Below are positions 3,703-28,738 of a stretch of 64,000 nucleotides of DNA, one piece after another. The notes under the pieces were generated by a model. That model was not told where the DNA came from. It saw only the letters and a program-made list of their open reading frames with translations, and ran no database searches. The stretch is from Egicoccus sp. AB-alg2. GTDB taxonomy: Bacteria > Actinomycetota > Nitriliruptoria > Nitriliruptorales > Nitriliruptoraceae. The stretch is taken from positions 1 to 64,000 of the forward strand of contig NZ_JBGUAX010000011.1 of NCBI RefSeq assembly GCF_041821065.1. Direction: 5' to 3'. The position numbers and the translations under genes were made by a program. Position 1 is the first letter of the stretch. Each line of letters begins with the position of its first letter.

Positions 3703-3708
3703 GAGAAG

Positions 3709-11666: not shown

Positions 11667-12431
11667 TCAGCGGCGGAGGCGCAGCAGCCCCGCGACGCGG
11701 CGACGGCTCTGCGGCGAAGTGCCCGCAAGCCGGAGTCGGAGATAACCGGGCTGGGTCTTCACCCTCAGCCCACGCAGCGTGTTGACCCGGTAGATCCCCG
11801 TTCGCGGCACCGCGAGGGGACCGACCGGCTCCCGACGCTCCGGGAGGCTGAACGCGACGAAGTAGCCGGCACTCCTCGCGGCCTCGCGGGTCACCCGGTC
11901 GTGGTGACCGCGCGGGTAGGCCACCGTGTCGATGCGCTCCCCGAGCAGGTCTTCAAGGGCTTCACGGCTCTGCCGCAGCTCCTGCAACTGTTCCGCGAAG
12001 GTCAACTCCGGCAGGTCGCGGTGCGTGACGGTATGGGAACCGAACCGGATGCCGGCGGCACGCATCTCCAGGATCTGGTCCCGGTCGAGGCAGCGAAGGT
12101 CGCGCGGAACGACATCCTCACGGACCCAGTCCACGGGCGTCTCACGATCGTGAAGGGTCCGCGTCACCACGTAAACGGTGGCCGGGAGGCCGAGTCGTCG
12201 CAGGACCGGGAACGCGTGGTGGTACACCCCGTCGAAACCGTCGTCGAACGTCAGCAACGCCCATCCCGGTGGCAGCTGGCCCCGGCCGTCGAACCGCCGC
12301 TTGGCCTCGGGGAGGTCGACGACGCGGCGTCGACGAGCAAGCCACTCGGCCTGCTGCTCGAAGGCTTCGGGACGGACCGCGAGCGGGCTCTCCCAGCCAC
12401 TCTCGACCGTGTGGTAGCAGAGGACCGTCAC
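11667..12431 (-). CDS. Polysaccharide deacetylase (NodB homology)
   Basis: A 254-aa carbohydrate-esterase family 4 protein. Motif 1, LLTFDDGFDG (about residues 53-62), supplies the catalytic base and a metal-binding Asp. Motif 2, GSHTVTH (H-x3-H, about 114-120), supplies the metal-binding histidines. RIDTVAYPRGHHD (about 150-162) matches motif 3. It removes N- or O-acetyl groups from a glycan. The start is the GTG at 12431, where YHT (a typical N-terminal strand) begins three codons later; the ribosome-binding site is weak and an upstream start is possible. With no clear signal peptide from this start, it may act on lipid-linked or membrane-proximal intermediates. It lies downstream of two FemAB-like genes on the same strand. 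Confidence 0.88.
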   Translation of the reverse strand: MTVLCYHTVESGWESPLAVRPEAFEQQAEWLARRRRVVDLPEAKRRFDGRGQLPPGWALLTFDDGFDGVYHHAFPVLRRLGLPATVYVVTRTLHDRETPVDWVREDVVPRDLRCLDRDQILEMRAAGIRFGSHTVTHRDLPELTFAEQLQELRQSREALEDLLGERIDTVAYPRGHHDRVTREAARSAGYFVAFSLPERREPVGPLAVPRTGIYRVNTLRGLRVKTQPGYLRLRLAGTSPQSRRRVAGLLRLRR

Positions 12432-12600
12432 GGGCCGCTCACGTCGACTCGAGGAGCACCTGGCCCGGTCCCCATGGCCTCCTCCCGTTCCGCACCCGAC
12501 CACAGAAGCCCCGCCCTCGGATGCCCGTGGCAGGCAGGGTGCCAGGCTACCGACGCGGGGAGGTGACCGGCTGGGTCGGTGCGTTGCCGTCCGGGCACGT

Positions 12601-13686
12601 TCAGGCCGCGCGGTCAGATCGAACGGCGGCACGAAGCTCTCGTGCCGCTGCCATGAGCCGCTTGGCCCGCGGTCGGACCCGCTCCTGGAGCAGGAGCGAG
12701 GTGCGACCCGCGAGCGTGGCGGGATGCAGGTTGACGACGTTCCAGTTCCGCGTGAGATCGGTCCACTCACGCTTGTACTCGTCGTTGCGCCCACCGAACT
12801 CGTAGGAGCTCAACCGATGGTCGAAGGCACGCCGGATCATCTCCTCCCGCAGGAGCTGACCCGGCGCGTAGCGGTGCCACGCGGGGTCGTACCCCGTCTT
12901 CAGCAGATGGTGGCGTCCGTGCTGCTCGATGCACACGTCGACCGCGATAGCCGTGCCGCCGGCTTCCAGGAAGGCGAGGACGAGCCAGCCCTGCGAAGCG
13001 GCCCAACGTGCGAGACCCGTGTAGTAGTTCCGGGCCGGCGGGTCGGTGACGATCGCCGTGCCGGTGTCCAGCTTCCAGCCGGACGCCTCCAGAGCGAACG
13101 CGCGCGCGAGCAGCCCATCGAGATTGCGAGAGCCGTCGTGGACCACCACGCGAACCTCGCCGTGTTCGGCCAGCCGCCGTCGGCGACGGCGCAGTTCGCT
13201 CCGGAATCTGGTGCGCAATTGCTGGTGGTAGGCGTCGAAGTCCCCGCCCTCCACCCGGACGTAGGGTGAGCGTTCCAGAATGCGGTCGCGCAGCTGTGCC
13301 CGCCCGACGTGCACTGCTGCTCGCTGCAGTCGGTCGCGATCCTCGTCGGGGACGAACCGGAGTTCCGTGCGCGCCGGAGCCCGACGGCTGAGCAGCCACA
13401 CCATCCCCGCCACGGCCTCGTCGTCGGCCAGCAGCAGCTGGCTCGCCGGGGTGTGCCAATTCGTCACCGTCCGCCACGTGCCACGCACCTCGTGCAGCGG
13501 CAGCACACCGACCAGATCACCGTCCCGCTCGGCGAGCACCACCCGGAGCCGGCCGCCGCCGAACGCCCGTCGGTGGATGTCCACGTGAGCCGGACGCACG
13601 AAGGGCGATCCCCCCAGCCGCTCCGCGAGCTCCTCCCAGGCGTCCGCCACGGAGGGGATGTCGGACGACGTCCGCAGCCGCATCAT
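12601..13686 (-). CDS. FemAB/CelD-like GNAT acyltransferase (first of two)
   Basis: A 361-aa protein of the BioF2-like/CelD acetyltransferase group (double GNAT fold). The second GNAT half is marked by GWLVLAFLEAGGTAIAVDVC, then HHLLKTGYDPAWHRYAPGQL (acyl donor loop region, about residues 255-300), and YEFGGRNDEYKREWTD. Such proteins transfer acyl or aminoacyl groups to cell-surface polymers or their precursors; the exact donor is unknown. The ATG at 13686 overlaps the stop of the preceding gene (ATGA), so both are translated together; a second ATG follows immediately. Its companion at 13683..14837 is a distant homologue. Confidence 0.82.
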   Translation of the reverse strand: MMRLRTSSDIPSVADAWEELAERLGGSPFVRPAHVDIHRRAFGGGRLRVVLAERDGDLVGVLPLHEVRGTWRTVTNWHTPASQLLLADDEAVAGMVWLLSRRAPARTELRFVPDEDRDRLQRAAVHVGRAQLRDRILERSPYVRVEGGDFDAYHQQLRTRFRSELRRRRRRLAEHGEVRVVVHDGSRNLDGLLARAFALEASGWKLDTGTAIVTDPPARNYYTGLARWAASQGWLVLAFLEAGGTAIAVDVCIEQHGRHHLLKTGYDPAWHRYAPGQLLREEMIRRAFDHRLSSYEFGGRNDEYKREWTDLTRNWNVVNLHPATLAGRTSLLLQERVRPRAKRLMAAARELRAAVRSDRAA

Positions 13687-14837
13687 CGCGCGAGCCGCGC
13701 CCGGGCCTGCTGCCGACTCGCGCGCAAGGCCTGGAGCAGTCGGGCCGCACGCTCGTCGTCCCCTGCGGCCACTTCCAGCCGGCCCCGCAGACGTTGGGCA
13801 CCGAAGACTCGGACGCCGAGGGCCGAACTGGACCACGCCAGCAGTTCGAGTGCCCGCTCCTCGCCGTTGGCCATGCTCAGCTTGTAGGGCTCCTGTCCCA
13901 TCATCCAGTCGATGGTGTCCAGCGCGGGATCGTCGAGCACCCGTTTCACGAGCTCGAGCATGATGAGCCGCCCGGGGCTGTAGCTCGCCCAGCGGGGTGC
14001 GTGGTGGCCGTTGTAGAACCGGTAGGCGTTGCCGTCGAGCAGGTTGATGGTGTACCCCGCCACCTCGCCCCCGGCGCGGAGGATCACGAGCTCAACGGCA
14101 CCCTGGCCAGCGAGGGCGAGGGTCACCTCGCGCAGGAACCGCTCCCGGCCGGGCTCGTCGAGCGGAGAGCGACCGAGCATCTCCCGCTCCCGCGCTCGAC
14201 ACACCGCCACGATCTCGTCGAGCTCCGCGCGGATCCGGGCTGGCTCCCTCAGGAACTCCACCCGGGGGTGGTGACCGTCGCGTTCGAGGCGGTTCCACCG
14301 GTTCCGGGCCTGCCCACGGTGGTTCTTCGAGAGGTAGGCGCGGACCTCGCGTCGCGTGATGTGCGTCTGCGGCGAGGAGCGACCAGGCAGCAGCCGTGCA
14401 CGACGCAGCCGCGCAGCGACACGCACCGCGACCAGGTCGTCCGGGGGAAGCTGACGCAACGCCAGGGTCCAGCCCGAACGCAGATTCGCCAGCTGCGAGG
14501 TCAGCGCATCGGCCAGCCTGTTGGCCGCCGGTTCGTCGAGCGCGGGCAGCCGGGCATGGTCGCTCACCCCGTCGGCGATCAGGACGAGCTCGCTGTGCCA
14601 GCGCCGACGCTGCCGGACCAGCGGCGCGGCGGCCCGCAGCCGGCCGCGCGTGTCCCTTGCCGCCAACACCCACGGCTGCGCATCCGGGAACGCCCGTAGC
14701 CAGGTGCCGAGCCAGGACACCCGTGCGGTGATCGGTGCGTCGACGGCCTCCAGCAGCACCTCGAGTTCATCGGCGTGCTCCGCGAAACGGTCCCGGCCCG
14801 CCCACAACTCGACACGCAGATCACGGTCCGCCGACAT
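13683..14837 (-). CDS. FemAB/CelD-like GNAT acyltransferase (second of two)
   Basis: A 384-aa protein with the same architecture as its coupled neighbour. The core is YLSKNHRGQARNRWNRLERD (about residues 155-175), followed by an arm rich in Arg/Glu, then VELVILRAGGEVAGYTINLL and YRFYNGHHAPRWASYSPGRL (about 250-300), the usual CelD-type signature, and a YKLSMANGEE end. It is the first gene of the leftward group and diverges from the Wzy-like gene across a 203-bp gap. The ATG at 14837 is chosen because homology-like content begins there; an open frame runs up to 14909. It probably acylates a sugar unit of the polymer made by the locus; that role is inferred from location. Confidence 0.82.
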   Translation of the reverse strand: MSADRDLRVELWAGRDRFAEHADELEVLLEAVDAPITARVSWLGTWLRAFPDAQPWVLAARDTRGRLRAAAPLVRQRRRWHSELVLIADGVSDHARLPALDEPAANRLADALTSQLANLRSGWTLALRQLPPDDLVAVRVAARLRRARLLPGRSSPQTHITRREVRAYLSKNHRGQARNRWNRLERDGHHPRVEFLREPARIRAELDEIVAVCRAREREMLGRSPLDEPGRERFLREVTLALAGQGAVELVILRAGGEVAGYTINLLDGNAYRFYNGHHAPRWASYSPGRLIMLELVKRVLDDPALDTIDWMMGQEPYKLSMANGEERALELLAWSSSALGVRVFGAQRLRGRLEVAAGDDERAARLLQALRASRQQARARLAR

Positions 14838-15028
14838 CAGGCACCATCCGCCGTCGGCCTGCCAACAGCTGCGAGCTGCAGGAGCCGGTCCGACCGCCGT
14901 GCAACGCACAGGCTAACGCGCCACGCCGCGTGGCGGCCGTGGATCCCGGGTCGAGAGTTCGAGGGCATGTGTCCTGTGCACCGACCGTCGTCGCCGCGTG
15001 GACGACCGCCTCCGACACCCGGTCGACG

Positions 15029-15034
15029 TAGCAT
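15029..15034 (+). promoter_or_regulatory. Candidate -10 (TAGCAT) giving a leaderless wzy-like mRNA
   Basis: TAGCAT ends 6 nt before the ATG at 15041. No Shine-Dalgarno sequence lies between them. A transcript starting the usual 6-8 nt after the -10 would begin at or next to the start codon. Confidence 0.35.
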
Positions 15035-15040
15035 CTGCCC

Positions 15041-16357
15041 ATGCCACTGAACCCGGTGATCGTCGCGCTGGTTCTGGCGCTGCTGCCGTTTCTGGGGCTC
15101 GCCGGCCTCAGCGCGATGAGACGCCCCGTCGTGCTCCTCGCCACCTACGCCGCGATCGTGCCCTTCGGCTCCTCGTTGGCGGTCCCCGGGATCGGCGGGT
15201 CCTTCGGCACCGTCTCCACGATCCTCGCGCTCCTCATCTCCGGCATGCTCGTCGTCAAGCTGCTGCTGGGCGGGGATCGGGCGCCGGAGCTCCCGGCGCC
15301 TCTGCCGTGGTGGATGCTCGTGGTCGTCGCTGCCATGCTCACGGTGGCCTGGTCCATCGACACCTCGGCCACGATGGGCGGCATCGTGGTGCTGCTGAGC
15401 CTGTTGATGCTCTACGTCGTTGCCTCCCTGGTCGACGTACGCCCCGAGGGACTGATCACCATCGGGACCGCCTCAGCGGTCTCTGGAGCCCTGGTTGGCG
15501 TGACCGCCCTGGTGCAGCTCGCGACCGGCACGATGGCGACCGAGCCCGTGACCGGGGTGCCGAGGTTCGCGCTCGCCGGCGGCGGCGGCGAAACCGGCGA
15601 TCCGAACATCACGGCCGCAGGGCTGATGTTGCCGCTCTCGATCGCGGTGTTCCGAGCGGTGGAGCGGGGACGATCCCGGCGAAGCCGGTCCCTCTACAGC
15701 CTGGGAGCGGGACTGACGGTGACCGCGATCCTCCTGACCGGCTCGCGCGGAGGGATCCTGGGGCTGATGGCCATCACCGGGGTCCTGCTGTTGGCCGAGC
15801 CCGCGCGACGACCGAGCCCGCGCCACGTCCTGATCGGTCTGCTCGTGGTCAGCGCGCTCTTCACGCTCACACCTACGAACGTGCAGGAACGCCTGCAGGA
15901 CGCGAGCTCCACCGGCCGCACCGACATCTGGCGCATCGGTCTGGCCGCCTGCGACGACTACTGCCTGCTCGGCAGCGGCTGGGCGACGTTCCGGCAGGTG
16001 CACGCCCGCGGACTGCTCGAGTCGCCCGACCGGATCGGCTGGGTCTTCGGCTACGACCCCCACAACGTCTGGCTGCAGATGCTCGTGCAGGCGGGGGTGC
16101 TGGCGCTCGTGCTGTTCACGGGGGCCCTGGTGGTCAGCTACCGAGCGCTGCGCCGCGTCCCCGCCGCTTGGCGCGGACCGCCGATGGCCGCGCTCACCGC
16201 ACTCCTGGCTGCCAACATCTTCGTCAGCAACTTCGACTTCAAGTACTTCTGGTTGACGCTGCTGTACGTCAACCTCTCGCTCACCGCCTCTGGATATCTT
16301 CGGAACGGAGCGGTCCAGGGTCTGCCACGGGAGTCCCACGCGTTGGTCGGGGGCTGA
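15041..16357 (+). CDS. O-antigen ligase / Wzy polymerase-like membrane protein
   Basis: A 438-aa polytopic membrane protein with about 11-12 hydrophobic segments. The Wzy_C/O-antigen-ligase signature is present: TGSRGGILGLMAI (about residues 228-240), then a large external loop containing GSGWATFRQVHARGL and GYDPHNVWLQMLVQAGVLAL (about 340-360), the HN-xx-LQ motif. It would polymerise or ligate undecaprenyl-linked repeat units at the outer face of the membrane. It is the first gene of a rightward operon; the next start lies 24 nt beyond the overlapped stop. Wzy polymerase and ligase cannot be told apart from sequence alone. Confidence 0.88.
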   Translation: MPLNPVIVALVLALLPFLGLAGLSAMRRPVVLLATYAAIVPFGSSLAVPGIGGSFGTVSTILALLISGMLVVKLLLGGDRAPELPAPLPWWMLVVVAAMLTVAWSIDTSATMGGIVVLLSLLMLYVVASLVDVRPEGLITIGTASAVSGALVGVTALVQLATGTMATEPVTGVPRFALAGGGGETGDPNITAAGLMLPLSIAVFRAVERGRSRRSRSLYSLGAGLTVTAILLTGSRGGILGLMAITGVLLLAEPARRPSPRHVLIGLLVVSALFTLTPTNVQERLQDASSTGRTDIWRIGLAACDDYCLLGSGWATFRQVHARGLLESPDRIGWVFGYDPHNVWLQMLVQAGVLALVLFTGALVVSYRALRRVPAAWRGPPMAALTALLAANIFVSNFDFKYFWLTLLYVNLSLTASGYLRNGAVQGLPRESHALVGG

Positions 16358-16380
16358 TGGCCTCACCGGAGGAGGACCGG

Positions 16381-17643
16381 ATGGGTGATCGTCCCGATGC
16401 CGTTGCTCGCTTCGTCTGGGCGCTGCGGAACTCCTGGGGGCTGTGCGCGCTCGCCGGTCTGACCTTCCTGGCGCTGGTCGTCGGTGCTGGCATGCAGTTG
16501 GTGGGTCCGACGGAGTACTCGGCCCGAGCCCTGGTCGTCCCCCGCTCCCTCGGCGACGATCTGGACGCTCTGCGCCTCTCGCGCTTCCAGCAAGCGGTCT
16601 TCGAGAACGGTGGCGTCATCGAGGCAGCCCTCCTCGACGACGACGTGCCGTACACGGGCCGGACGGAGCTGCTCGCGCACGTCGAGCTGCAGCCGGTCGA
16701 GGACAACATCGCCCTCAACGTCGCCGCCACCGATGGCGACCCGGGTCGGGCCGCCGAGGTCGCCAACGCCGTAGCCGGGTACCTCGTCAGTGCGCTGAAC
16801 CGCGTCGGGGAGTCCGTCGGCACCTTTCAGGTGCACACGCCGGCGACCCCCCCGGCAGAACCCGAAGGGCAGCTGGCGCTGACCGTGCTGATCGCGGTCG
16901 GCGCGGTGGGCGGCCTGGCAACCGCCGTCGCCGTTGCGGCCCTGCTCGCCACGTGGCGACGGCCGGTGCTCGCCCCGGCGGACGCGGAAGAAGCCTTGGA
17001 CGCGCCCTCCCTCGGCCGCCTCCTGCTACCCGCCGACCCGGAAGCGCCGGTCCCGCTCGGCTACTTCCCGCCGCCCGCCGCACGGATGGGAGCGACCCCG
17101 CCCATTCGGGTGCTGGGACTCTCCGCACTCGTCGGTCGCCTCTACCCGCGACGCTCCGGGACGTGTGTCTTCGTCGCGTCCGAAGCCTCGAGTGCGGCCG
17201 CGCTCCAGGTCGCCAGCCTGGTGGCGCGCGCGCTGGCCCGGCAGGGTCCCGTGCTCTACGTCGCTGGCGGCGACGCACAGCACACCAACGGGGTACCACC
17301 GGACGGACGAGTGACGCGGTGCACTGCGGTGGAGGTGGCACCCGAGGACTGGCGGCGGGCGCCCACCGTGGTGGAGGGGCCGGGCATCGCGGACGTCGAC
17401 CTCGCCGAGCACATGCCCCTCGACGCTTCCATCGTGGTCGTCGTCACCGAGGGAGAGCGAGCGGCCTCACTCGAGCGACTCCGTCAGAGGTTCTACACCG
17501 GGGGGGTCGCCGGGGTGCTGTTCGTGCAACGAGAAAGGCGCCCACACCGCGCCGCCAGGAACCGCTCCGCGACCCCCGAGCTCGGGCCGGATGTACCACG
17601 AAAGCCCGCCCGCGTGGGTGAGGGCGCAGCCGACGAGCCGTGA
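16381..17643 (+). CDS. Wzz-like chain-length regulator with degenerate tyrosine-kinase-like domain
   Basis: A 420-aa protein. Two transmembrane helices (about residues 19-40 and 160-185) flank an extracytoplasmic domain, as in polysaccharide co-polymerases. The C-terminal cytoplasmic part (about 255-400) follows the outline of BY-kinase/CpsD domains: TCVFVASEASSAAALQVASL is where VTSxxPGEGKST would be, then PVLYVAGGDA replaces VLLIDAD, and SIVVVVTEGERAASLERL resembles the late strand and helix. No Walker A lysine, Walker A' aspartate pair or tyrosine cluster is present, so it is probably not a kinase. The ATG at 16381 has GGAGGAGG 5 nt upstream; an ATG at 16357 overlapping the previous stop is an alternative. 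It ends in a GTGA overlap with the flippase gene. Confidence 0.8.
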   Translation: MGDRPDAVARFVWALRNSWGLCALAGLTFLALVVGAGMQLVGPTEYSARALVVPRSLGDDLDALRLSRFQQAVFENGGVIEAALLDDDVPYTGRTELLAHVELQPVEDNIALNVAATDGDPGRAAEVANAVAGYLVSALNRVGESVGTFQVHTPATPPAEPEGQLALTVLIAVGAVGGLATAVAVAALLATWRRPVLAPADAEEALDAPSLGRLLLPADPEAPVPLGYFPPPAARMGATPPIRVLGLSALVGRLYPRRSGTCVFVASEASSAAALQVASLVARALARQGPVLYVAGGDAQHTNGVPPDGRVTRCTAVEVAPEDWRRAPTVVEGPGIADVDLAEHMPLDASIVVVVTEGERAASLERLRQRFYTGGVAGVLFVQRERRPHRAARNRSATPELGPDVPRKPARVGEGAADEP

Positions 17644-19208
17644 GCTCCGAGGACGGAATGCCGGACGGCGCCGCGGACGTGCGGGCGCAGGTCCGTGGTT
17701 CGGTGCTGTTGACCGGCGGCCGGATCTTCGCCACCGCGCTGAACATGGGCGTGCAGGTGCTCACCGTCCGTGCGTTGACGCAGTCGGGGTACGCAGCCTT
17801 CGCCTACGGACTGGTGGTCGCCGGGGTCGGCGAGTTGCTCTCCGTCACCGGGATGCACCGCGCGATCGTCATCCTGCTGCCCCGCCACGAGACAGCGGGT
17901 GACGTCCGCGCGGCGATGGCCACGCTGACGGCTGCCGCGCTGTCGGTGGTGGGAGTCGGCCTGGCCTTCGTGCTGGCCGTGTTCTCGTTCCGTGCCTTGA
18001 TCGCGGGCTCGCTGGCGGATGATCCGCAGGCCATCGTGGTGCTCACCCTGCTGGCGTTCCTCGGGCCGATCAAGGGCGCCGAGACCCTGTTCGACTCCAC
18101 CTACGCGGCGCTGGGTCGCCCCCGGGCGATCGTGCTACGGCAGTACCTGCTCGCGCCGCTGCTGCGCCTGGCCGCCGTCGTCCTGGTGCTGCTCGGCCCC
18201 AGCAACCCCGTCCTGCTCGCCTTCGGGTACGTGCTCGGAGGGCTGTTGGGTCTGGCGGTCGCGGGCCAGGGCCTGCGCCGGATCCTGCGCGCCCACGACC
18301 TCTTCCGTGGTGCCCGCCTCGGCATCCGAGGCCTCCCGGTCAAGCTCACGGCGTTGACGACCCTCCCGCTGTTCGCCAACAACCTGGTCGAGCTCGCATT
18401 GCAGACGCTGGACGTGGTGATGCTGGTGCAGCTGTCCACCCCGGAACAGGTGGCCTTGCTGCGCGCGATCATGCCGGTCGCTCGCGCGAACGAGTTCGTG
18501 GTCACCGGCTTCACGGTCCTGTTCACGCCAATGGCGGCACGGCTCCTGGCCCGGCGCCGGGAGGCGGAGCTGAACCGGCTGTACTGGCAGACGGCCCTCT
18601 GGCGTGCGGTGCTGGCCTTCCCGATCCTGATGTTGTGCACCGTGCTGGCCTCGCCGGTCACGGTCCTGCTCTTCGGTGAGCGCTATGCCGACTCCGCCCC
18701 GATGCTGACCGTCATCGGCGCCGGCGTCTACGTCGGCGCGCTCGCGGGACCGAACCAGGCCGTCCTCGAGGTCACGTCTCGGTTCCGGCAGTTGCTGGCG
18801 GTCAACATCGTGACCGTCGCGCTGTTGATCGTGCTCAATCTGCTGCTGATCCCGACGATGGGCGGGTTGGGGGCCGCACTCGCGACCGGCGGTGCGCTGG
18901 TGTTCCGCGGGGCAGCCACCCAGGTGCTGGTGCTGCTCCACGGATCGATCGGCCTTCCCGGTCGCGAGTTCCGCCGGCCCTACCAGGCCCTGTTCACCGC
19001 GCTCGCCGCGACCGGGGTCGTGCTGCTGGTCCAGCCTGGGCCGCTCACCTCGCTCCTGGTCGCTGCCGCCCTGAGCGTCGGCGTGTTGATCCCGGCACGG
19101 CAGGAACTCGATGTCATCAGCAATTTCCCCGCCCTGGCGAGGGTGCCGGGGCTGCCGCTGCTGCTCGGACACCGCGCCGAGCGGTCGACGGGCGAGGATC
19201 CCTCGTGA
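17640..19208 (+). CDS. Wzx-type polysaccharide flippase (MOP superfamily)
   Basis: A 522-aa membrane protein with about 13-14 predicted helices and the layout of polysaccharide-specific MATE/MOP exporters. The N-terminal VRGSVLLTGGRIFATALNMG and the later LTALTTLPLFANNLVELALQ and RANEFVVTGFTVLFTPMAAR segments are typical of the family. It would move undecaprenyl-linked repeat units across the membrane for the Wzy-like polymerase two genes upstream. The GTG start overlaps the preceding stop (GTGA), and the next gene's GTG overlaps its own stop, so translation of the three is coupled. Confidence 0.9.
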   Translation: MSSEDGMPDGAADVRAQVRGSVLLTGGRIFATALNMGVQVLTVRALTQSGYAAFAYGLVVAGVGELLSVTGMHRAIVILLPRHETAGDVRAAMATLTAAALSVVGVGLAFVLAVFSFRALIAGSLADDPQAIVVLTLLAFLGPIKGAETLFDSTYAALGRPRAIVLRQYLLAPLLRLAAVVLVLLGPSNPVLLAFGYVLGGLLGLAVAGQGLRRILRAHDLFRGARLGIRGLPVKLTALTTLPLFANNLVELALQTLDVVMLVQLSTPEQVALLRAIMPVARANEFVVTGFTVLFTPMAARLLARRREAELNRLYWQTALWRAVLAFPILMLCTVLASPVTVLLFGERYADSAPMLTVIGAGVYVGALAGPNQAVLEVTSRFRQLLAVNIVTVALLIVLNLLLIPTMGGLGAALATGGALVFRGAATQVLVLLHGSIGLPGREFRRPYQALFTALAATGVVLLVQPGPLTSLLVAAALSVGVLIPARQELDVISNFPALARVPGLPLLLGHRAERSTGEDPS

Positions 19209-20314
19209 GACGAGCGGGCACCGCCGCCGCCGATGCGCCGGGCCGTCCCCGACGCCAGGTCCTGCTGGTCGGCAAGGGGCCACCGGAGGTGGGTGGGATA
19301 CCCGCCTACCTGACGGCGGTCCTGGACAGTCGGCTGGCCGAGACGTACGAGCTCTCGCTGTGCAACCTCACCGACGACGCGAGCGCCGAGGGCGGTCGGC
19401 TCTCGGCGGAGAACCTGCGGCGGATGTGGCGCGATCTCCGGCGCGTGTGGCGCGCCGCTTCCGGGCGCGACGTCGTCCACATCCACACGGCACTCGCACC
19501 GACGGTGACCTGCCTCCGCGCAGGCGCGCTCGCGGCACTGGCCCGGCTACGCGCCCCGCGGGTGATCGTGCACATCCACGGGGGGTTGGTCGCCAGCTGG
19601 ATGGTGGGTCGAGTCCGTCGCGCCGCGGCCCGCGCCGCGCTGGCACCGGCGACGAGCATCGTGACGGTGTGTGCCGCGGGAGAGCAGGCCGTCACGGAAC
19701 TCATCGGTCCGACGAAGGTCGAACTGGTCGACAACGGGATCGACGTCCACCGCGTCCCGGCACGGGCAGCCCGAAGCGATGTCGTCCCCCGGGTGGTCTT
19801 CGCGGGTCTGCTCTCGGAGCGCAAGGGGTTGCTCGAGCTGTTCGAGGCGAGCCGCCGTCTGCACCGGGAGGGACTCGTCCACGAGCTGGTGGTCGCCGGT
19901 GGCAACCACGAGGAGGGCCCCGCCGAGGAGGCCCGCATGCGGCAGGCCGGTGCCGACGTCGCGACCTTCACCGGTCAGCTCGACCGGGCCGAGGTGATGG
20001 AGCTGCTCACGTCCTCCGACGTGCTGTGCTTGCCCTCTTGGGTCGAGGCGATGCCCCTGATCTTGCTGGAGGCGATGGCGGCGGGCGTCGCGGTCGTGGC
20101 CTCCGAGGTGGGCGACATACCGCGGGTCGTCATCGATGGCGAGACCGGCCGGCTGGTGCCGCCTCGGGACACCGACGCGCTCGTCGACGCCCTGCGGAGC
20201 CTTCTGCAGGACGCGGAAGGCCGCGCCCGGCTCGCCTCGGCCGGGCGCGAGCACGTCGCCACGAGCTTCAGCCTCGACCGCACGCTGAGCGCGCTGGACC
20301 GGCTCTACCGCTGA
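19205..20314 (+). CDS. Glycosyltransferase family 4 (GT-B fold)
   Basis: A 369-aa cytoplasmic glycosyltransferase. The N-terminal Rossmann half starts QVLLVGKGPPEVGGIPAYL (about residues 19-37), with the GG loop near the acceptor site, and includes DVVHIHTAL. The nucleotide-sugar-binding C-terminal half has VFAGLLSERKGLLELFEA (about 198-215) and the E-x7-E region in WVEAMPLILLEAMAAGVAVV (about 279-298). It is the last gene of the rightward operon and overlaps the convergent asnB-like gene by 10 nt. The sugar donor is unknown. Confidence 0.92.
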   Translation: MRRAGTAAADAPGRPRRQVLLVGKGPPEVGGIPAYLTAVLDSRLAETYELSLCNLTDDASAEGGRLSAENLRRMWRDLRRVWRAASGRDVVHIHTALAPTVTCLRAGALAALARLRAPRVIVHIHGGLVASWMVGRVRRAAARAALAPATSIVTVCAAGEQAVTELIGPTKVELVDNGIDVHRVPARAARSDVVPRVVFAGLLSERKGLLELFEASRRLHREGLVHELVVAGGNHEEGPAEEARMRQAGADVATFTGQLDRAEVMELLTSSDVLCLPSWVEAMPLILLEAMAAGVAVVASEVGDIPRVVIDGETGRLVPPRDTDALVDALRSLLQDAEGRARLASAGREHVATSFSLDRTLSALDRLYR

Positions 20315-22296: not shown

Positions 22297-22300
22297 TGCA

Positions 22301-23491
22301 TCACTCCTCGGGGCCGTCCTCCCAGCCGGTGTGGCCGTAGCCCGCAGCCTCGGGGTTGGACGGGATGAACCCGTCGCAGCTGTCGACGCGGTCGAATCCA
22401 GGATCGATCGGAAAGCGGTTGGCCCCCCCGTCGGCGAGGCCGGCGCCCTCCTCCGCGGTGTCGGGGACGTCGAGCAGCGTGGCCGCAGCGAACCCGATGT
22501 TGTCCCGGGCCACGTTGCCGGAGCCGGTCAGCTCGAAGCTACGGATGCTGCCGACCCCACCCCCCGTACCCCCGAAGATGTTGCGCTCGATGAGGTTGTC
22601 GCTGGACGCGCCCGAGACCAGCAGGTTCTGTGCGGCGCGGAAGAGCGTGTTGTTGCGGACGGTCACGTCGACGGCGCCGCCTTCCTGGCCCGGAGGACCG
22701 AGCTTGAGGTTCTCCCCGTTCGGCGCCCCGAACAACAGGTTGCCCTCGATGCGGCCAGGCCCGGCCGACAGCCCCGTGTTCACGTAGAGATTGTGGTCCT
22801 GGTTGACGCCGTTGGTCGGCGCGGTGTCCCGTATGCAGTTGCCGGAGACCTCCCAAGCGGCCGGCTCGCCGTCGCCGGTTCCGGCGACCAGCATCCCCGC
22901 GTAGGAGCGTGCGCCGGAGATCTCGGCTCCACGTACCGTCCAGCCGACGCCGTCGGTGACCTTGACCATGTGCTCGTGGGGGGCGCCGGTCTGTTCGTCC
23001 CAGGTCACGTCGAGCCCCTCGAGCACCCAGTTGCTGCCTCCCTCCAGCCAGAGCAGCCCTTGGATGACCGGTTGCTCCCCGGGCGCGCCACGCACCACGG
23101 TCGGCGCGCCCTCGTCGGCATCCGGCATGGGGACGTCGATGAGTCGCTCGCGGTAGACCCCACCACCGATGGTGAGCCGATCGCCGGCCGCCAGTTCCTG
23201 CAGCGCATGCCCCACCGTGCGCCACGGCTCGTCCTCGTTGCCCGAACCGGCGTCGTCCCCCTGCGTCTCGACGAACAGGTCACGCCCATCAGGGGTCGCG
23301 CCCGGCTGATCGGGCCGATCCTCTGGCGTGACCGTGCAGGAGCAGGTCACCAGTGCCGCCAGCAGTCCGCTCACACACCGACGCGTCGCCACTGATCGGG
23401 GGGTCCGCGGAAACGCCGCGCGTGGGACCCGCCCGTCACGGCCACGTGGATCCGGCATGCCGTCCGCGTGTCGGGAGTCATCCCCATGCAC
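22301..23491 (-). CDS. Parallel beta-helix lipoprotein (polysaccharide lyase/epimerase-like fold)
   Basis: A 396-aa exported protein. A long Arg-rich N-terminus leads to a hydrophobic stretch and a possible lipobox at SGLLAALVTCSC. The mature part starts with a DUF1565-like segment, EPWRTVGHALQELAAGDRLT, followed by GGVYRERL, and continues as right-handed parallel beta-helix repeats: VVRGAPGEQPVIQGLLWL, HEHMVKVTDGVGWTVRGAEI, LYVNTGLSAG, GAPNGENLKLGPPG, NTLFRAAQNLLVSG. No catalytic residues of a known lyase can be assigned. It is a close paralogue of the 24867..26360 protein but lacks its PKD domain. The start is the GTG at 23491; an ATG at 23458 is equally possible. It lies upstream of asnB in the same operon. 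Confidence 0.8.
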   Translation of the reverse strand: MHGDDSRHADGMPDPRGRDGRVPRAAFPRTPRSVATRRCVSGLLAALVTCSCTVTPEDRPDQPGATPDGRDLFVETQGDDAGSGNEDEPWRTVGHALQELAAGDRLTIGGGVYRERLIDVPMPDADEGAPTVVRGAPGEQPVIQGLLWLEGGSNWVLEGLDVTWDEQTGAPHEHMVKVTDGVGWTVRGAEISGARSYAGMLVAGTGDGEPAAWEVSGNCIRDTAPTNGVNQDHNLYVNTGLSAGPGRIEGNLLFGAPNGENLKLGPPGQEGGAVDVTVRNNTLFRAAQNLLVSGASSDNLIERNIFGGTGGGVGSIRSFELTGSGNVARDNIGFAAATLLDVPDTAEEGAGLADGGANRFPIDPGFDRVDSCDGFIPSNPEAAGYGHTGWEDGPEE

Positions 23492-23613: not shown

Positions 23614-24705
23614 TCAACGGTGCCGCGACCCGGGCGGGCGCGCGGGACGCGGCGCCGGCACGAGCGGGCCCGCCGGCTTCCACGGAGTCGCACGCCAGCG
23701 CAGGGACGGGACCGCACCGCTCAGAAAGCCGATGCCCCACCCTGCGTGCATGGCGATGAAGGCACCGGGCAGGTGCCGTCGCACCCGGGGCTCGCTGATC
23801 CCACGTGCCGTCCAGGCGCTCGCGGCCAGGAGCCCGACGACATACGGACCCACGAGGCCCGCCGCCGCGCGTGGGCGACCGCGAACGAGCAGAACCAACG
23901 CGAGGAGCCACGAGATCACCAGTGTCGGTGCGGCGAGGTGGCGCGGCTGGAGCGAGTCCGGGTGTAGCCGCGCCACGCGGGTCTTTCCCCTGCCGTACCG
24001 GTGGTACTGCTTGGCCAGGTCGCGGATGGACTGCCGGCAGACCCAGTCGATGGTGAGCGCCGGGTCGAGCAGCAACTCGTAGCCCGCACGGCGGATGCGG
24101 TAGTCGAACTCGAAGTCCTGGTTGACCGCCAGGCGCTCGTCCCAGCCGCCGAGGCGGCGAGCGAGCTCCACCGGATAGCAGCCGAAGGGGATGTGATCGA
24201 CCGTCCTCGGCTCCGTGGCGTAGTGGTAGGCGGAGTTCCCCACGCCGAAGGGCGAGGCCATCGCCGCCGCGATCGCCTTGCCGGCGGGGGTCACACCGAC
24301 GCCGTCCTTGCGTCCGCCGACGCCACCCCACCGACCGGTCCGCAGATGCCCCACCGCGATGGACACGTACTCACGAGGGATCACGGCGTGCGCGTCGACG
24401 CGGACGAGCCACCGACCCCTGGCCGCCGCCAACGCGAGGTTCAGCGAGATCGGAATCCGCGATGCGGGGTTGTGCACCAACTCGACACGTTCGTCCTGCG
24501 CCAGCCGTGCCGCCACGATGTCCGCGGTGTGGTCACGAGACGCGCCGTCGACGACGACGACCTGGAGGCGGTGATGGGTCTGGGCGAGCACGGAGTCCAG
24601 GCAGGCGCCGATGTGCGCCTCCTCGTCGCGGGCTGGGACGACCACGGTGACGAGGTCCTCGCTCTCGCCGGTGTTGCCCGAGAGCAGCGGCGTTGAGGTC
24701 GGCAT
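23614..24705 (-). CDS. Glycosyltransferase family 2, ExoA-like membrane-bound
   Basis: A 363-aa glycosyltransferase. The GT-A core starts VTVVVPARDEEAHIGACLDS (about residues 19-38) and has VVVVDGASRDHT and VRVDAHAVIP (DxH/D metal site, about 107-116). An ExoA-type acceptor region follows, with NQDFEFDYRIRRAG and QYHRYGRGKTRVARLHP. Two or three hydrophobic helices near the C-terminus (APTLVISWLLALVLLVRG and the following segments) anchor it to the membrane. It would add a sugar to an undecaprenyl-linked intermediate. The ATG at 24705 has AGGGGA 6 nt upstream. It sits between the two beta-helix paralogues. Confidence 0.9.
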   Translation of the reverse strand: MPTSTPLLSGNTGESEDLVTVVVPARDEEAHIGACLDSVLAQTHHRLQVVVVDGASRDHTADIVAARLAQDERVELVHNPASRIPISLNLALAAARGRWLVRVDAHAVIPREYVSIAVGHLRTGRWGGVGGRKDGVGVTPAGKAIAAAMASPFGVGNSAYHYATEPRTVDHIPFGCYPVELARRLGGWDERLAVNQDFEFDYRIRRAGYELLLDPALTIDWVCRQSIRDLAKQYHRYGRGKTRVARLHPDSLQPRHLAAPTLVISWLLALVLLVRGRPRAAAGLVGPYVVGLLAASAWTARGISEPRVRRHLPGAFIAMHAGWGIGFLSGAVPSLRWRATPWKPAGPLVPAPRPARPPGSRHR

Positions 24706-24866: not shown

Positions 24867-26360
24867 TCAGTTCCCGGAACGGTTGCGCAGCCAGCCGATC
24901 GCCTTGCCCTTCTTCGTTCGCTCGTCGACGGTCGGGTCCCCACCGCTGTCCGGGACCGGCGCGGGCGCCGGTTCGGCGGCGATGTGCAGCGGGTGGCGCA
25001 CCTCGGCCGTACGACCCTGCGCGTCGGTCACCCGCAACAGCAGGTCCGCCGTCCAGTCACCGTGATGGAAGGTGAAGGAGGCCCTCCCGTCGGCGCTCTC
25101 GGCGAGCTTGGTGTTCACCCTCGCGTCCCACCACTCCCACTTGACGATGTCACCGGTGGACTGGGAGCCGTCGAACTCGACCTCGTCACCGGCCACTGGC
25201 GCCTGCGGCGACCAGGTGAAGGACGCGGTCGGGGCGGGCGCCGGCGTCGGGGCGGGCGTCGGCGTCGGAGCGGGCGTCGGCGTGGGCGTGGGAGCGGGCG
25301 ACGACGTGACGGCGGTGTGGCCGTACCCGGTGACGGCCGGGTTGCGCGGCACGAACTGGTCGCAGCGCGAGGTGCCGTTGAAGTCCGGGTCGACCGGGTG
25401 GCGGTTCAGCCCCCCGTCCTGGACGCCGTTGCCGCCGTCGTAGTTGTCGATGGCACTGGCGGAAGCGAACGCCACGTTGTCCCGAGCGACGTTGTTGGTG
25501 CCCGTGATCCGGTAGCTGCGCAGACTGCCGTAGTTGCCCTTGGTCTTACCGACGATGTTGCGCTCGATCAGGTTGTCCCTCGACCCACCGGAGATCAGCA
25601 GGTTCTGGGCCGCGTCGTAGAGCGTGTTGCGACGCACCACGACGTTGGCAGCGCCCCCGTCGGCGCCCGGAGGGCCGAGCTTGACGTTCTCGCCGTTCGG
25701 CGCACCGTAGAAGAGGTTCCCCTCGATGACGCCGGCCCCGGCCGAGAGCCCCGTGTTGACGTAGAGGTTGTGGTTCTGGTTGAGACCGTTGCTCGCGGCG
25801 GTGTCCCGGATGCAGCTGCGCTCCAGCCGCCAACGCGCAGGTTGGCCCTGACGATCGCCGGCGATGAGCATCCCGGCGAAGGAGTGTGCGTTGGAGATCT
25901 CGGCGTTCCGAACCACCCAATCCGTGCCGTTGGTGACCTTGACCATGTGCTCGTTGCTGGAGCCGGTCGCGTGGTCCCAGGTCACGTTGATGCCGTCGAG
26001 CACCCAGTGCGAGCCGCCGTTGAGCCACAGCAGGCCCCGCACGACCGGACGCTCACCGGCATAGGCGACGATCCGGGTGGGCGCGCTCGCCGTCGAGTTG
26101 GGAAGCGAGACGCTACGCAGACGCTCCCGGTACTCGCCACCCCGGACATAGAGGGTGTCACCGGGTCGCAGCTGGCTCAACGCGTGGCCGAGCGTGCCGA
26201 AGGGGCGTTCGAGGGTGCCAGGGTTGCTGTTCGACGCTCCTGGGGCGACGTAGAGCGCCCGCTCCTGCGCCGAGACCGGCGTTACCGTGGCCACGAGGAG
26301 CGCCAGCATGACCGAGAGCAGCACTGCCCGGCGGAGAAGCCGGCGGGAGGGGTGTTTCAT
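24867..26360 (-). CDS. Secreted parallel beta-helix protein with Pro/Thr linker and PKD-like domain
   Basis: A 497-aa exported protein. A signal peptide spans about residues 1-32 (LLSVMLALLVATVTPVSAQ). The beta-helix part (about 35-345) begins LYVAPGASNSNPGTLERPFG and includes DTLYVRGGEYRERLRSVSLP, SNEHMVKVTNGTDWVVRNAE, LYVNTGLSAGAGVIEGNLFY and NGENVKLGPPGADGGAANVV. A proline/threonine/alanine linker of about 27 residues follows, then a PKD/Ig-like domain (about 375-460; PVAGDEVEFDGSQSTGDIVK, with KWEWWD after). It is highly similar to the beta-helix lipoprotein at 22301..23491. The ATG at 26360 has AGGTGG upstream. It may bind or cleave the locus' own polymer; no catalytic motif is certain. 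Confidence 0.85.
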   Translation of the reverse strand: MKHPSRRLLRRAVLLSVMLALLVATVTPVSAQERALYVAPGASNSNPGTLERPFGTLGHALSQLRPGDTLYVRGGEYRERLRSVSLPNSTASAPTRIVAYAGERPVVRGLLWLNGGSHWVLDGINVTWDHATGSSNEHMVKVTNGTDWVVRNAEISNAHSFAGMLIAGDRQGQPARWRLERSCIRDTAASNGLNQNHNLYVNTGLSAGAGVIEGNLFYGAPNGENVKLGPPGADGGAANVVVRRNTLYDAAQNLLISGGSRDNLIERNIVGKTKGNYGSLRSYRITGTNNVARDNVAFASASAIDNYDGGNGVQDGGLNRHPVDPDFNGTSRCDQFVPRNPAVTGYGHTAVTSSPAPTPTPTPAPTPTPAPTPAPAPTASFTWSPQAPVAGDEVEFDGSQSTGDIVKWEWWDARVNTKLAESADGRASFTFHHGDWTADLLLRVTDAQGRTAEVRHPLHIAAEPAPAPVPDSGGDPTVDERTKKGKAIGWLRNRSGN

Positions 26361-26865
26361 GAGGGACCACCTGTTCGGAGAAGCCGCGAGAAACGGAAAG
26401 CTGGCGCGGAGGCTTTCGGACATTTGTCCCGGCTTCCAGATCCTCTTTCATCGGCGCACTCGACGGAATTGCGGCTGAATTGACGTCTCGTGCGGGCAAG
26501 CGCACGTCATGCACCCGGGACAGACGTCCCATGTACGCAGGCGCAACTCGCGGCCAACTTGTGACGCCGCGCGATTCGCGCACCCGTCGCGGTGGAAACT
26601 GCGGGCCGGGAACTTCCCGCCACCCGCCCGATCGGGGCGTTCCATCCGATTTTCGCGGCCCCGACGCCGCCGTCGCCTTCCCGCCGAGCACGCGGGTGGC
26701 CATCGCTCCCGGGTTTCGCGAGCCACACGCGCGTTCAGGGCATCGCCCGGCTCCGCTCTCCCACCTCGGCCGTCACCGAGAAGGGTCGGCTTCGACCGTC
26801 ACCTGCGGCCCGACCGACCGTTCGTGGCTCGTGCGGAGGGCCGATCCGTCGGCGCACCGCGCCGT
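26361..26865 (-). other. 505-bp non-coding stretch upstream of the beta-helix gene
   Basis: No convincing gene is present; the short open frames here are Arg-rich and lack recognisable content. The local composition is less GC-biased than the flanks, and the stretch probably holds the promoter and 5' leader of the beta-helix gene. It includes one clear imperfect inverted repeat at 26481..26509. I recognised no known riboswitch consensus. Confidence 0.6.
26481..26509. repeat. Inverted repeat with 3-nt bulge (TGACGT...CGCACGTCA)
   Basis: TGACGT-ctc-GTGCG and CGCACGTCA pair over 9-11 bp around a 6-nt GGCAAG loop, with a 3-nt bulge on one arm. It lies about 120 nt upstream of the beta-helix start. 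It could be an operator or a leader hairpin. Confidence 0.5.
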
Positions 26866-27837
26866 TCACACACCGACGCGCACCCGATAGCCGTATCGCC
26901 ACATCAGCGGCAGGGTGAGCGCGTCGACGGTGAGGCGGTGACGGACCGGCAGCGACCGCCGCCACTCGTCGTCGGACCGGATCCTGGTGACGCCGTGCCG
27001 GAGGCGATCGGGATTCCCGGAGACGGTGTGGTTGGGTCCCAAGCGCGCTTCGTGCGAGGACACCAGTGGCAGGGAGCCCGCCGGGAGCCCCAGCCGCTCG
27101 AGCGCGGCGAGCAACTCCCGTCCGGGAGCGGCGACGAGGTCCTCGTATCGCAGCCGTACCACGTCGTCGGACGGCTCGCGCCAATAGGCCTCGACCGCGA
27201 GGTTCCAGACCAGCCACCGGGCGGAGCTCGCCGCTGGGGACCGGTACATCTCGAGATGCTGGTCGGGACGGTCGATCAACTGCTTGCGGCGCAGCCAGGA
27301 ATGAGCGACGGCGCGCGGGTCGCGAACGAGGTGCAGAACGCGCAGATCGACGGCGGAGGAGGCGTCGAGGAGGAGGCCGTAGGAGGGCCACTTCGACGAG
27401 TCGATGATGACCGCGGCGCCGGTGACGGTCGCGATCGCGCGGTACACACGGTCGAGGCTTCGCCGGAAGGTCTCCGCCTCGGCCAGTCGTCGCTCGCGCG
27501 AGGCGGGCCAGGCCAAACCAGCCATCCGGCGCGTCCGCGTCGTGTCGGTCGCCGCCGCGCGCATCCAGTCGGCGTCCACGCCCTCGGGGTACGCGGTCGC
27601 GATGACGGCCGACCAGAGCGGGCAATCGTGGAAACGGCGACCGCATCCACAGAGTGTGTTGTCGTGCCAGACGTAGTCCCACAGGTAGTACAGCTCACCT
27701 GCGTGGAAGTACCCAGGCAACTCACCCATCAAGTTCGCCGCGAGCGTGCTGCCACTCCGCTGCCAACCGGCGATGTAGAGCACCTTGACTGCCGACCCGA
27801 CCGCGGTCGGCCGCGCATCATCGGGAAGTGGTGTCAC
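26866..27837 (-). CDS. PAPS-dependent sulfotransferase family protein
   Basis: A 323-aa sulfotransferase. The 5'-phosphosulfate loop is LYIAGWQRSGSTLAANLMGE (about residues 20-39). The 3'-phosphate motif is HLVRDPRAVAHSWLRRK (about 168-184), with the conserved Arg and Ser of RDPRxxxxS. A Cys-rich stretch, CGCGRRFHDCPLW (about 63-75), is typical of a bacterial subgroup. It transfers sulfate from PAPS to a hydroxyl, here probably of the locus' glycan or glycolipid; the acceptor is inferred from context. The GTG at 27837 has GGGGGGAGGG upstream. It lies 25 nt downstream of the formyltransferase-like gene. Confidence 0.87.
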   Translation of the reverse strand: MTPLPDDARPTAVGSAVKVLYIAGWQRSGSTLAANLMGELPGYFHAGELYYLWDYVWHDNTLCGCGRRFHDCPLWSAVIATAYPEGVDADWMRAAATDTTRTRRMAGLAWPASRERRLAEAETFRRSLDRVYRAIATVTGAAVIIDSSKWPSYGLLLDASSAVDLRVLHLVRDPRAVAHSWLRRKQLIDRPDQHLEMYRSPAASSARWLVWNLAVEAYWREPSDDVVRLRYEDLVAAPGRELLAALERLGLPAGSLPLVSSHEARLGPNHTVSGNPDRLRHGVTRIRSDDEWRRSLPVRHRLTVDALTLPLMWRYGYRVRVGV

Positions 27838-27862
27838 CGTCGTCCCTCCCCCCTGACCGCAC

Positions 27863-28738
27863 TCAGGTGAGCCGGTTGCCCCGGCTCCCGACGGAGCCCT
27901 GCCTCAGGGCGAGTTCAGAAGCTGCGGGGAAGAACCGGGTCGTCTCCGCGACGCGGTGCGGGGGCCGACGGCGGAGGATCGATCTCGACGCCCACGACCG
28001 TATGTCCTTCCACAGGGTGCGATCATCCAGCCGGTACAACCGGCCCTTCGTGGTCTGCGAGGTCCCGAGCGCGGGTGCCCCTTCCTCGACGGTGTGCAGG
28101 TACTCGACCAGGACGCGGGCGCCGAGCTGCGCGCACTTCACGCCCAGACTGACCTCGTCGTCGGCGGCGGTCATGGCGGGACGGACGTATGCCAGAACCG
28201 GCCCGGTGTCGACGCCGGCGTCCACGCGGTGGATGGTCATGCCGACGTGGTCGTAGTCGCCGTGCAACAGGGCGTGGAAGAGCGTGTGTTCGCCCCGGTA
28301 CTGCGGCGCCACCCCGAAATGCAGGTTGACCGTGCCGTGCTTCGGGATCGCCAGCAGGTCCGGCGGCAGGATGGGCGCGCCGGACAAGACCAGCACGTCG
28401 GGTGCCAGGGCGGCGAGGATGTCGGCCGTCCGCCCGGTCCGTAGATCCCTGGCCGGCACGGCCAGGTGCGGCGGAAGGTCGAGCGAGTCGGCCGTGTCGC
28501 CGTACAGCAGTTGGACGGCGCGCCGTTCGTGTCGACGATCACGGACATCGTTCGAGACGCGGCGCAGGATCTTCGCGGCCCCGCGGAGCGGATGTTTGGA
28601 CCAGACACGAAGTTGCTGCAGGCTGCTGGATCCTTGCCACCAGGGACGCAGAATGATCGCCTCGGGAAACGTGCGTCGCACCACGTCGAGGATGTACCGG
28701 TTCTTCGCCCGGCAGGAACTGATGACGACCACCCTCAC
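27863..28738 (-). CDS. Formyltransferase-like protein (putative sugar N-formyltransferase), paralogue
   Basis: A 291-aa formyl-transferase-fold protein closely similar to the one at 68..898. The shared core is GTVNLHFGVAPQYRGEHTLF (Asn and His of the catalytic set) with HRVDAGVDTGPVLA (the Asp). As in the paralogue, the Fmt C-terminal tRNA-binding domain is absent; instead both end with a KGRLYRLDD-like segment. The GTG at 28738 is chosen because GGGAGGAG lies 6 nt upstream and VVVISSCRAKNRYI matches the paralogue's N-terminus. It is the first gene of the second leftward polysaccharide group, ahead of the sulfotransferase, which favours an amino-sugar acceptor. Confidence 0.83.
   Translation of the reverse strand: MRVVVISSCRAKNRYILDVVRRTFPEAIILRPWWQGSSSLQQLRVWSKHPLRGAAKILRRVSNDVRDRRHERRAVQLLYGDTADSLDLPPHLAVPARDLRTGRTADILAALAPDVLVLSGAPILPPDLLAIPKHGTVNLHFGVAPQYRGEHTLFHALLHGDYDHVGMTIHRVDAGVDTGPVLAYVRPAMTAADDEVSLGVKCAQLGARVLVEYLHTVEEGAPALGTSQTTKGRLYRLDDRTLWKDIRSWASRSILRRRPPHRVAETTRFFPAASELALRQGSVGSRGNRLT

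Follow-up and report, generated by a model that had tools for sequence, protein, structure and literature searches.

A tRNA-bounded Wzx/Wzy-type locus of Egicoccus sp. AB-alg2 with predicted functions for a decorated surface polysaccharide

Few sulfated polymers are known beyond those of animals, algae and cyanobacteria, and the available portions of two papers treat bacterial sulfated polysaccharides as known essentially from cyanobacteria (PMC13390465, PMC8205485). An earlier note on the DNA studied here had remarked that few actinobacterial polymers are sulfated, and these sources agree with it. In the synechan xss cluster of Synechocystis sp. PCC 6803, as described in the part of the paper available, sulfation is proven and sulfate in the polymer was measured (PMC8205485). 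The only actinomycete sulfated-polysaccharide cluster in the sections of literature examined is wps-1 of Actinoplanes missouriensis, for which knock-outs were made and the sulfated exopolysaccharide itself is a prediction (PMC13390465). These two clusters are the closest published relatives of the locus described below.

The window, meaning the whole stretch of 64,000 nucleotides that was analyzed, carries a locus that, like xss, brings together Wzx, a Wzy-family protein, a putative chain-length protein, glycosyltransferases and sulfotransferase content. The xss cluster, which lies on a megaplasmid, differs in being cyanobacterial and in having two sulfotransferases and eight glycosyltransferases; its available descriptions, which give part of the gene list, name no formyltransferase, AsnB, deacetylase or FemAB gene (PMC8205485). 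With wps-1 the window locus shares an actinobacterial Wzx/Wzy setting, sulfotransferase content and a putative polysaccharide-degrading enzyme, but wps-1 encodes two sulfotransferases (with differently named families), a GH26 enzyme, a methyltransferase and a kinase, and the accessible part of its text does not mention formyl, FemAB or asparagine synthase (PMC13390465). Within the limited collection searched, no publication was found to treat sulfotransferase, formyltransferase, exopolysaccharide and wzy together. The locus would be a further Wzx/Wzy cluster of an already known sort, with predicted sulfation and formylation. The polysaccharide block (11667-28738) comprises 13 genes between tRNA-Val and tRNA-Cys:

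3708-3782, minus strand, tRNA-Val (gac), left border of the variable interval, also bordering it in genomes G002, G003, G004 and G019
11667-12632, minus strand, polysaccharide deacetylase with TFDDG and SHTVTH (PF01522, 90.6 bits; start uncertain)
12601-13686, minus strand, FemAB/CelD-like GNAT acyltransferase 1 (PF13480, Acetyltransf_6/FemAB-like, 120.5 bits)
13683-14837, minus strand, FemAB/CelD-like GNAT acyltransferase 2 (PF13480, 84 bits; open frame begins at 14909)
14838-15040, no strand, divergent intergenic region, from gene anatomy
15041-16357, plus strand, Wzy polymerase/O-antigen ligase family protein with about nine membrane segments (Wzy_C, PF04932, 71.8 bits)
16357-17643, plus strand, putative Wzz-like chain-length protein, from homology and its position between wzy and wzx
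17640-19208, plus strand, Wzx flippase (PF01943, 39.8 bits, cut-off 28.2; 38% to the G004 Wzx)
19205-20314, plus strand, GT4 glycosyltransferase (PF00534, 114 bits)
20305-22296, minus strand, AsnB-like glutamine amidotransferase with MCGI and SGGVDSS (asparagine synthase, PF00733, 343 bits)
22301-23458, minus strand, secreted right-handed beta-helix protein 2 with a lipoprotein-like N terminus (weak Beta_helix match)
23614-24705, minus strand, GT2 glycosyltransferase (PF00535, 79.5 bits; 60% to a G004 gene)
24867-26423, minus strand, secreted right-handed beta-helix protein 1 with a signal-like N terminus (PL9/PL6 and glycoside hydrolase fold matches)
26866-27837, minus strand, sulfotransferase with both PAPS-binding motifs (PF13469, 45.1 bits; PF00685, 25.6 bits)
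27863-28738, minus strand, formyltransferase with Asn-x-His and Asp intact (PF00551, 67 bits)
29426-29497, minus strand, tRNA-Cys (gca), right border, 3' end towards the locus; the same tRNA has an integrase in G010

The families named in the earlier note were confirmed by Pfam profile searches, with matches over the curated cut-offs, Wzz excepted; the two secreted beta-helix proteins had been overlooked. The catalytic or cofactor-binding motifs were all intact in the window proteins, namely TFDDG and SHTVTH (deacetylase), MCGI and SGGVDSS (AsnB-like protein), GWQRSGST and RDPRAVAHS (sulfotransferase), and NLHFGVAP and DAGVDTG (formyltransferase). The gene families and motifs give good support to the proposed decorated polysaccharide of the Wzx/Wzy type, and the block looks able to build a surface sugar polymer of an actinobacterium and to decorate it with sulfate and formyl groups. 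Such a polymer might, as the earlier note proposed, play a part in salt adaptation. Pfam searches found neither an initiating phosphoglycosyltransferase nor sugar-nucleotide synthesis genes among the block's genes. The genome holds five PF02397 genes, all outside the block, so that the Wzx/Wzy pathway can still be complete. The divergent intergenic region is likely a shared promoter region, by prediction, for the left (minus-strand) and middle (plus-strand) operons.

In the left operon, the open frame of the deacetylase starts at 12794, which is too far upstream, and translation probably starts at 12632 or a lower position; no signal peptide was seen. The two FemAB/CelD-like genes were indeed found to be coupled as proposed, both matching PF13480 and the start of the first overlapping the stop of the second by 4 bases. 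The AsnB-like protein scored 431 bits against TIGR01536, above the cut-off. A search with asnB at E 1e-130 recovered 5 relatives among 100, whose asnB-bearing loci, the G035 locus aside, have few further window genes in common. The formyltransferase matches methionyl-tRNA formyltransferases and sugar enzymes equally well, and its structure model (mean pLDDT 52) was too poor for a structure search. No amino-sugar aminotransferase that would provide its substrate was found among the block's genes by Pfam searches, and the deacetylase could supply the amine in place of an aminotransferase.

Exopolysaccharide loci of the XrtA/PEP-CTERM type share with the window an AsnB of the TIGR03108 kind, a Wzy/O-ligase and a GT4 of related families, and a FemAB-like gene and a deacetylase also occur in such loci. 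This exosortase assignment, prompted by the AsnB, FemAB and ligase matches, was rejected, since PF09721 had 0 matches in the genome and all such models scored below their cut-offs (509.8 bits against 816.9 for the amidotransferase model TIGR03108).

Of the Wzx/Wzy/Wzz core named in the earlier note, Wzx, a member of the PST family, and Wzy_C both have Pfam matches, the latter in a family that includes ligases as well. The Wzz-like protein had no match in Pfam; it has about two membrane or hydrophobic segments, and its homologues adjoin wzy in the relatives' loci L056 (36% identity) and L050 (31% identity).

The two beta-helix proteins are 57% alike, and protein 1 ends in a PT-rich linker followed by a PKD-like C terminus. 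Foldseek searches with a moderately confident model (mean pLDDT 60) returned PL9 and PL6 matches at E 2e-5 to 8e-4 with 12-16% identity, and VIA-align gave Z of about 20-23. Glycoside hydrolases match the model as well as lyases do, and alginate epimerases, glycoside hydrolases and phage tailspikes all fall within a few Z units. What the pair has in common with PL6/PL9 lyases and RbmB is the right-handed beta-helix, a resemblance of predicted fold, and the proteins may be described as putatively lyase-like by fold.

The gap between tRNA-Val and tRNA-Cys is 25.6 kb here, against 7.7 kb in G002 and 12.2 kb in G003 (same genus) and 1.9 kb in G004 and 9.3 kb in G019 (same family). The locus genes are absent from this interval in all four relatives in which both tRNAs were found, and in G002 and G003 it is filled by different, unrelated genes. 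Mean GC3 was 0.867 for the 13 locus genes and 0.940 for 16 flank genes (Mann-Whitney p 7e-6); polysaccharide loci often have a low GC3, which is not necessarily a sign of recent import. In G010, tRNA-Cys is followed at its 3' end by integrase and relaxase genes, and an integrase lies at tRNA-Val in G019. No copy of at least 14 bases of either tRNA, as an attachment repeat would leave, was present elsewhere in C11:1-124000, and none of three ORFs tested at 6-8 kb was an integrase for the island itself. Taken together, the absence in four relatives, the lower GC3 and the integrases at the same tRNAs point to an island in an integration hotspot, and the block is probably a laterally acquired Wzx/Wzy-type polysaccharide island, lying between tRNA-Val and tRNA-Cys and predicted to make a decorated polymer.

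Whether the genes stay together in relatives was put forward in the earlier note as a test, and the outcome was mixed. In G004, of another genus in the family, Wzy, Wzz, the deacetylase, Wzx, a sulfotransferase, GT4 and GT2 (7 of the 13 window genes) lie on one 19-kb contig, but no FemAB, AsnB, formyltransferase or beta-helix gene turned up on it. G009, of the same family, has Wzy, Wzz, GT4 and beta-helix homologues. G035, of the same order, combines a sulfotransferase, formyltransferase(s), AsnB and a deacetylase with Wzx and Wzy_C in one locus, but its sulfotransferase and Wzx are not orthologous to those of the window, pairwise comparison giving no meaningful match for the former and a weak one for the latter. 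Against conservation stands the absence of these genes from the tRNA interval of the four relatives. The G004 core and the recurrence in G035 with non-orthologous sulfotransferase and Wzx suggest a recurring set of chemistries whose genes are exchanged.

PF13469 had 10 matches across the genome, and the genome encodes a PAPS supply: APS kinase had five matches, four of them strong and two on the contig of the window, and one match is an ATP-sulfurylase/APS-kinase (Sat-CysC) fusion. Immediately beyond the right end of the window, a second Wzx/Wzy locus carries five sulfotransferases together with a PAPS synthase and an APS kinase, and its presence raises the likelihood that sulfation really takes place in this genome. 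In the proposed pathway, sugars would be assembled on a lipid carrier by GT4 and GT2 after initiation by an enzyme encoded elsewhere in the genome. Before flipping, the deacetylase would free an amino group, which the formyltransferase could cap with formyl, AsnB would convert a uronic acid to its amide, the FemAB-like pair would attach acyl or aminoacyl residues, and sulfate would be transferred from PAPS by the sulfotransferase. The Sat-CysC fusion and the CysC of the neighboring locus are plausible sources of this PAPS. Wzx would then flip the product, Wzy would polymerize it with chain length set by the Wzz-like protein, and the exported polymer would be trimmed or remodeled by the secreted beta-helix pair.

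Alternatively, a lipid or secondary metabolite could be the substrate of the sulfotransferase, which would then be a mere neighbor of the polysaccharide genes, with the polymer left unsulfated. Mycobacterial and rhizobial sulfotransferases do act on lipo-oligosaccharides, according to the part of PMC8205485 available, and the PDB sequence matches, of low score, were polyketide-synthase sulfotransferases. The subfamily survey kept 80 loci of 477 confirmed, from many phyla and with many loci ending at contig ends, and 34 of the 80 lacked any polysaccharide homologue at the chosen threshold. A Wzx homologue was nevertheless present in 29 of the 80, within 800 bases in 11, against none of 20 control stretches (arbitrary 20-kb pieces of four genomes, all from the class of the window alone); any Wzx, Wzy, Wzz, phosphoglycosyltransferase or glycosyltransferase homologue was found in 46/80 and 2/20, respectively. 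With the G004 sulfotransferase adjoining Wzx, and the window gene packed on one strand with the formyltransferase and beta-helix genes, an unsulfated polymer is rather unlikely. In the sulfotransferase tree, whose 96 rows comprised kept loci and nine further rows taken from the window and other genomes (matches with at most 250 aligned columns, or on the minus strand of a locus, were left out, while the 80-locus count covers all kept loci), the window sequence has a long end branch and falls in no well supported group; it pairs weakly with a paralogue on contig C4 (81/77) and does not group with the G004 enzyme. An ancestral block, present in the genus and lost in relatives rather than imported, would account for the related core in the same family (G004, G009), but it is decidedly unlikely given that the G004 core sits on a contig other than that of its tRNA interval, that locus GC3 differs from the flank and that the G002 and G003 intervals hold other genes.

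The product might instead be an oligosaccharide for protein (S-layer) glycosylation, with the Wzy_C gene as a ligase and the glycan placed on surface proteins without polymerization. PF04932 covers polymerases as well as O-antigen and O-oligosaccharide ligases, and the best NCBIfam match of the gene is TIGR03097 (putative O-glycosylation ligase), although at 49 bits this is far under the cut-off of 188. An SLH protein adjoins the locus (7929-10649) and CWB2 proteins lie inside the G004 and G035 loci, but wzy is accompanied by a chain-length-like gene in G004 and G009, the genome has no exosortase and SLH domains are scattered genome-wide (74 matches), which leaves this reading unlikely. The same SLH and CWB2 neighbors could mean that the polymer is a wall polysaccharide bound by such proteins. 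This is very improbable, as SLH proteins are abundant in genomes of the genus without the locus at this position, SLH matches were none in G004 and G035, and the genome's two PF04230 pyruvyl-transferase (CsaB family) genes are on other contigs; the 74 matches and the location of the PF04230 genes imply that an SLH gene next to the locus is hardly informative.

Returning to the decorated polymer of an acquired island, a bolder form of it is possible though doubtful: a glycosaminoglycan-like polymer new for the group, in which amino sugars, once deacetylated, would carry N-formyl in place of N-acetyl groups and the same chain would bear sulfate and amidated uronic acids, with its own paired lyase-like remodeling proteins. 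Together with the neighboring locus, with its five sulfotransferases and own PAPS synthase, one cell would then make two distinct sulfated polymers. If this were true, the same four chemistries in G035 with a non-orthologous sulfotransferase and Wzx would point to joint selection for sulfation and formylation in these polymers. Novel sulfated polymers and the lyases acting on them are of interest for practical purposes as well. The ten PF13469 matches, the dedicated PAPS synthase beside a sulfotransferase-rich Wzx/Wzy locus and the tRNA-bounded island with its additional decoration genes would make it directly testable whether deep-branching actinobacteria produce sulfated polymers and whether such traits are passed on by islands.

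The locus at 11667-28738 lies on a 145 kb contig (C11), of which the window covers bases 1-64000, in a 4.84 Mb genome with an estimated completeness of 98%, and comprises 13 genes arranged as three runs:

Left run, leftward strand: FemAB2-FemAB1-PDA (two FemAB/CelD-like acyltransferases and a polysaccharide deacetylase)
Middle run, rightward strand: Wzy-Wzz-Wzx-GT4
Right run, leftward strand: formyltransferase-sulfotransferase-beta-helix 1-GT2-beta-helix 2-AsnB (the last an AsnB-like amidotransferase)

Several adjoining genes overlap by 4 bases (13683/13686, 17640/17643 and 19205/19208), and motifs that we take to be functional are intact in the sequences. The genes from which an earlier note had proposed a sulfated, formylated, acylated and amidated Wzx/Wzy/Wzz polysaccharide were all found, and their assignments have Pfam support in every case save Wzz; the two beta-helix proteins were missing from that list. 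Judged by its gene content, the locus would very probably direct synthesis of a cell-surface or extracellular polysaccharide. Adjoining the locus (7929-10649, forward strand) is a glucose/sorbosone dehydrogenase-like protein with SLH domains, an unusual combination. A second formyltransferase (134-898, reverse strand), with intact catalytic residues and 44% identity to that at 27863-28738, lies near the contig end, where a further locus may be cut off.

The two beta-helix proteins are 57% alike. An AlphaFold model (mean pLDDT 60, above 70 for most of the first 160 residues) was matched by Foldseek to PL9 rhamnogalacturonan lyase, PL6 alginate lyases and chondroitinase B (E 2e-5 to 8e-4), and VIA-align superposed it on a glycoside hydrolase (Z 23.5, rmsd 2.8, 268 aligned) and on Pel9A (Z 22.6, rmsd 3.4, 294 aligned). 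The modelled likeness to lyases and hydrolases is one of fold alone. Tandem secreted beta-helix proteins also occur near the same sulfotransferase subfamily in an Actinomycetota MAG (L103, 7062-9682) and in Tetrasphaera (L109, 3678-8120), which may be chance.

The sulfotransferase carries both PAPS-binding motifs, and its subfamily has 37 invariant columns across eight sequences. A scan covering a single genome for each species retained 80 of 477 confirmed loci, many of them from Rubrobacter, Micromonospora, Nocardia, Nonomuraea, Nocardioides and Myxococcaceae; a Wzx homologue was present in 29 of the 80 and lay no more than 800 bases away in 11. Twenty control stretches, drawn from four genomes of the same class and so taxonomically narrower than the test set, gave no Wzx homologue and a GT or PGT in two. 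Since 46 of the 80 loci hold some Wzx, Wzy, Wzz, PGT or GT homologue, yet 34 showed none, the subfamily accompanies polysaccharide genes frequently but not invariably. The window sequence forms a long branch by itself in the sulfotransferase tree, pairing weakly with its own paralogue on contig C4. In several Rubrobacteraceae loci (L060-L065, L072 and others), a Wzx homologue is followed directly downstream by the sulfotransferase.

The locus, a probable island, sits between tRNA-Val (gac) and tRNA-Cys (gca), a span of 25.6 kb here, 7.7 kb and 12.2 kb in two same-genus genomes (G002 and G003), and 1.9 kb and 9.3 kb in two of the same family (G004 and G019). At E 1e-4, the locus genes were absent from this interval in all four; in G002 and G003 it holds transhydrogenase, catalase, dehydrogenase and ligase genes instead. 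The RsgA and TldD-like genes of the window and the next 30 kb are collinear with G003. Mean GC3 was 0.867 in the 13 locus genes versus 0.940 in 16 right-flank genes picked by hand. In relatives, both bracketing tRNAs serve as integration sites: after the tRNA-Cys 3′ end, G010 carries genes for an integrase and for a TrwC relaxase (L179, 13720-18194), and G019 has an integrase piece after tRNA-Val (L193, 8559-9119). A search for an integrase or repeat marking the island itself found none.

Among 61 genomes, the sulfotransferase was matched in 12, its own included, and in none of the three other genus members; at least one PF13469 match occurred in 38, with 10 in this genome versus 0, 1 and 2 in the congeners. 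A single contig of G004, from another genus, encodes Wzy (38%), Wzz (33%), PDA (52%), Wzx (37%), sulfotransferase (37%), GT4 (48%), GT2 (60%) and an initiating transferase, and in another family member GT4, a beta-helix protein, Wzy and Wzz fall within 9 kb. In G035, of the same order, one locus (L047/L048, C16:44.7-62.4 kb) brings Wzx, Wzy_C, glycosyltransferases and an initiating transferase together with a sulfotransferase, AsnB, PDA, two formyltransferases and a CWB2 protein; the match of the second formyltransferase to PF18216, the C-terminal domain of sugar enzymes, scored 25.5 bits, just below the 25.8 cut-off. The formyltransferases of the window and G035 are related (43% over 79 residues), the sulfotransferases gave no meaningful pairwise alignment and the Wzx alignment was weak, so the chemistry recurs with genes partly swapped. 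CWB2 cell-wall-binding proteins inside the G004 (L056, 13370-15376) and G035 (L047, 8230-10821) loci raise a possible link of these polymers to wall anchoring.

Work on synechan has shown sulfated polymers to be products of Wzx/Wzy clusters with sulfotransferases (PMC8205485), and a 2026 paper on Actinoplanes predicts a sulfated polymer for an actinomycete, chemical proof being lacking by its authors' account (PMC13390465); sulfate-containing Streptomyces polymers are also reported in the literature. The present locus is of the same kind as the synechan and Actinoplanes clusters, with a wider decoration set. The earlier observation of the locus was borne out, and its interpretation holds as a gene-based prediction, strengthened by the island context and a PAPS-equipped neighbour locus and weakened because the decorating genes are not orthologous among relatives. 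From these genes, sulfation of the polymer is modestly favoured; N-formylation, at slightly under an even chance, is a tentative prediction.

The neighbour locus (C11:65362-100489; L029 and L030), about 1-36 kb right of the window, encodes an ATP-sulfurylase/APS-kinase (Sat-CysC) fusion, a separate APS kinase (CysC), five sulfotransferases (one, at C11:84482-85063, scored by genome searches only), three FemAB-like genes, two GT4, a DegT aminotransferase, Wzy, a Wzz-like gene, Wzx, a Gfo/Idh oxidoreductase and an initiating transferase. Evidence for a sulfated polymer in this genome is better here than at 11667-28738, and both loci could draw PAPS from the enzymes of this neighbour.
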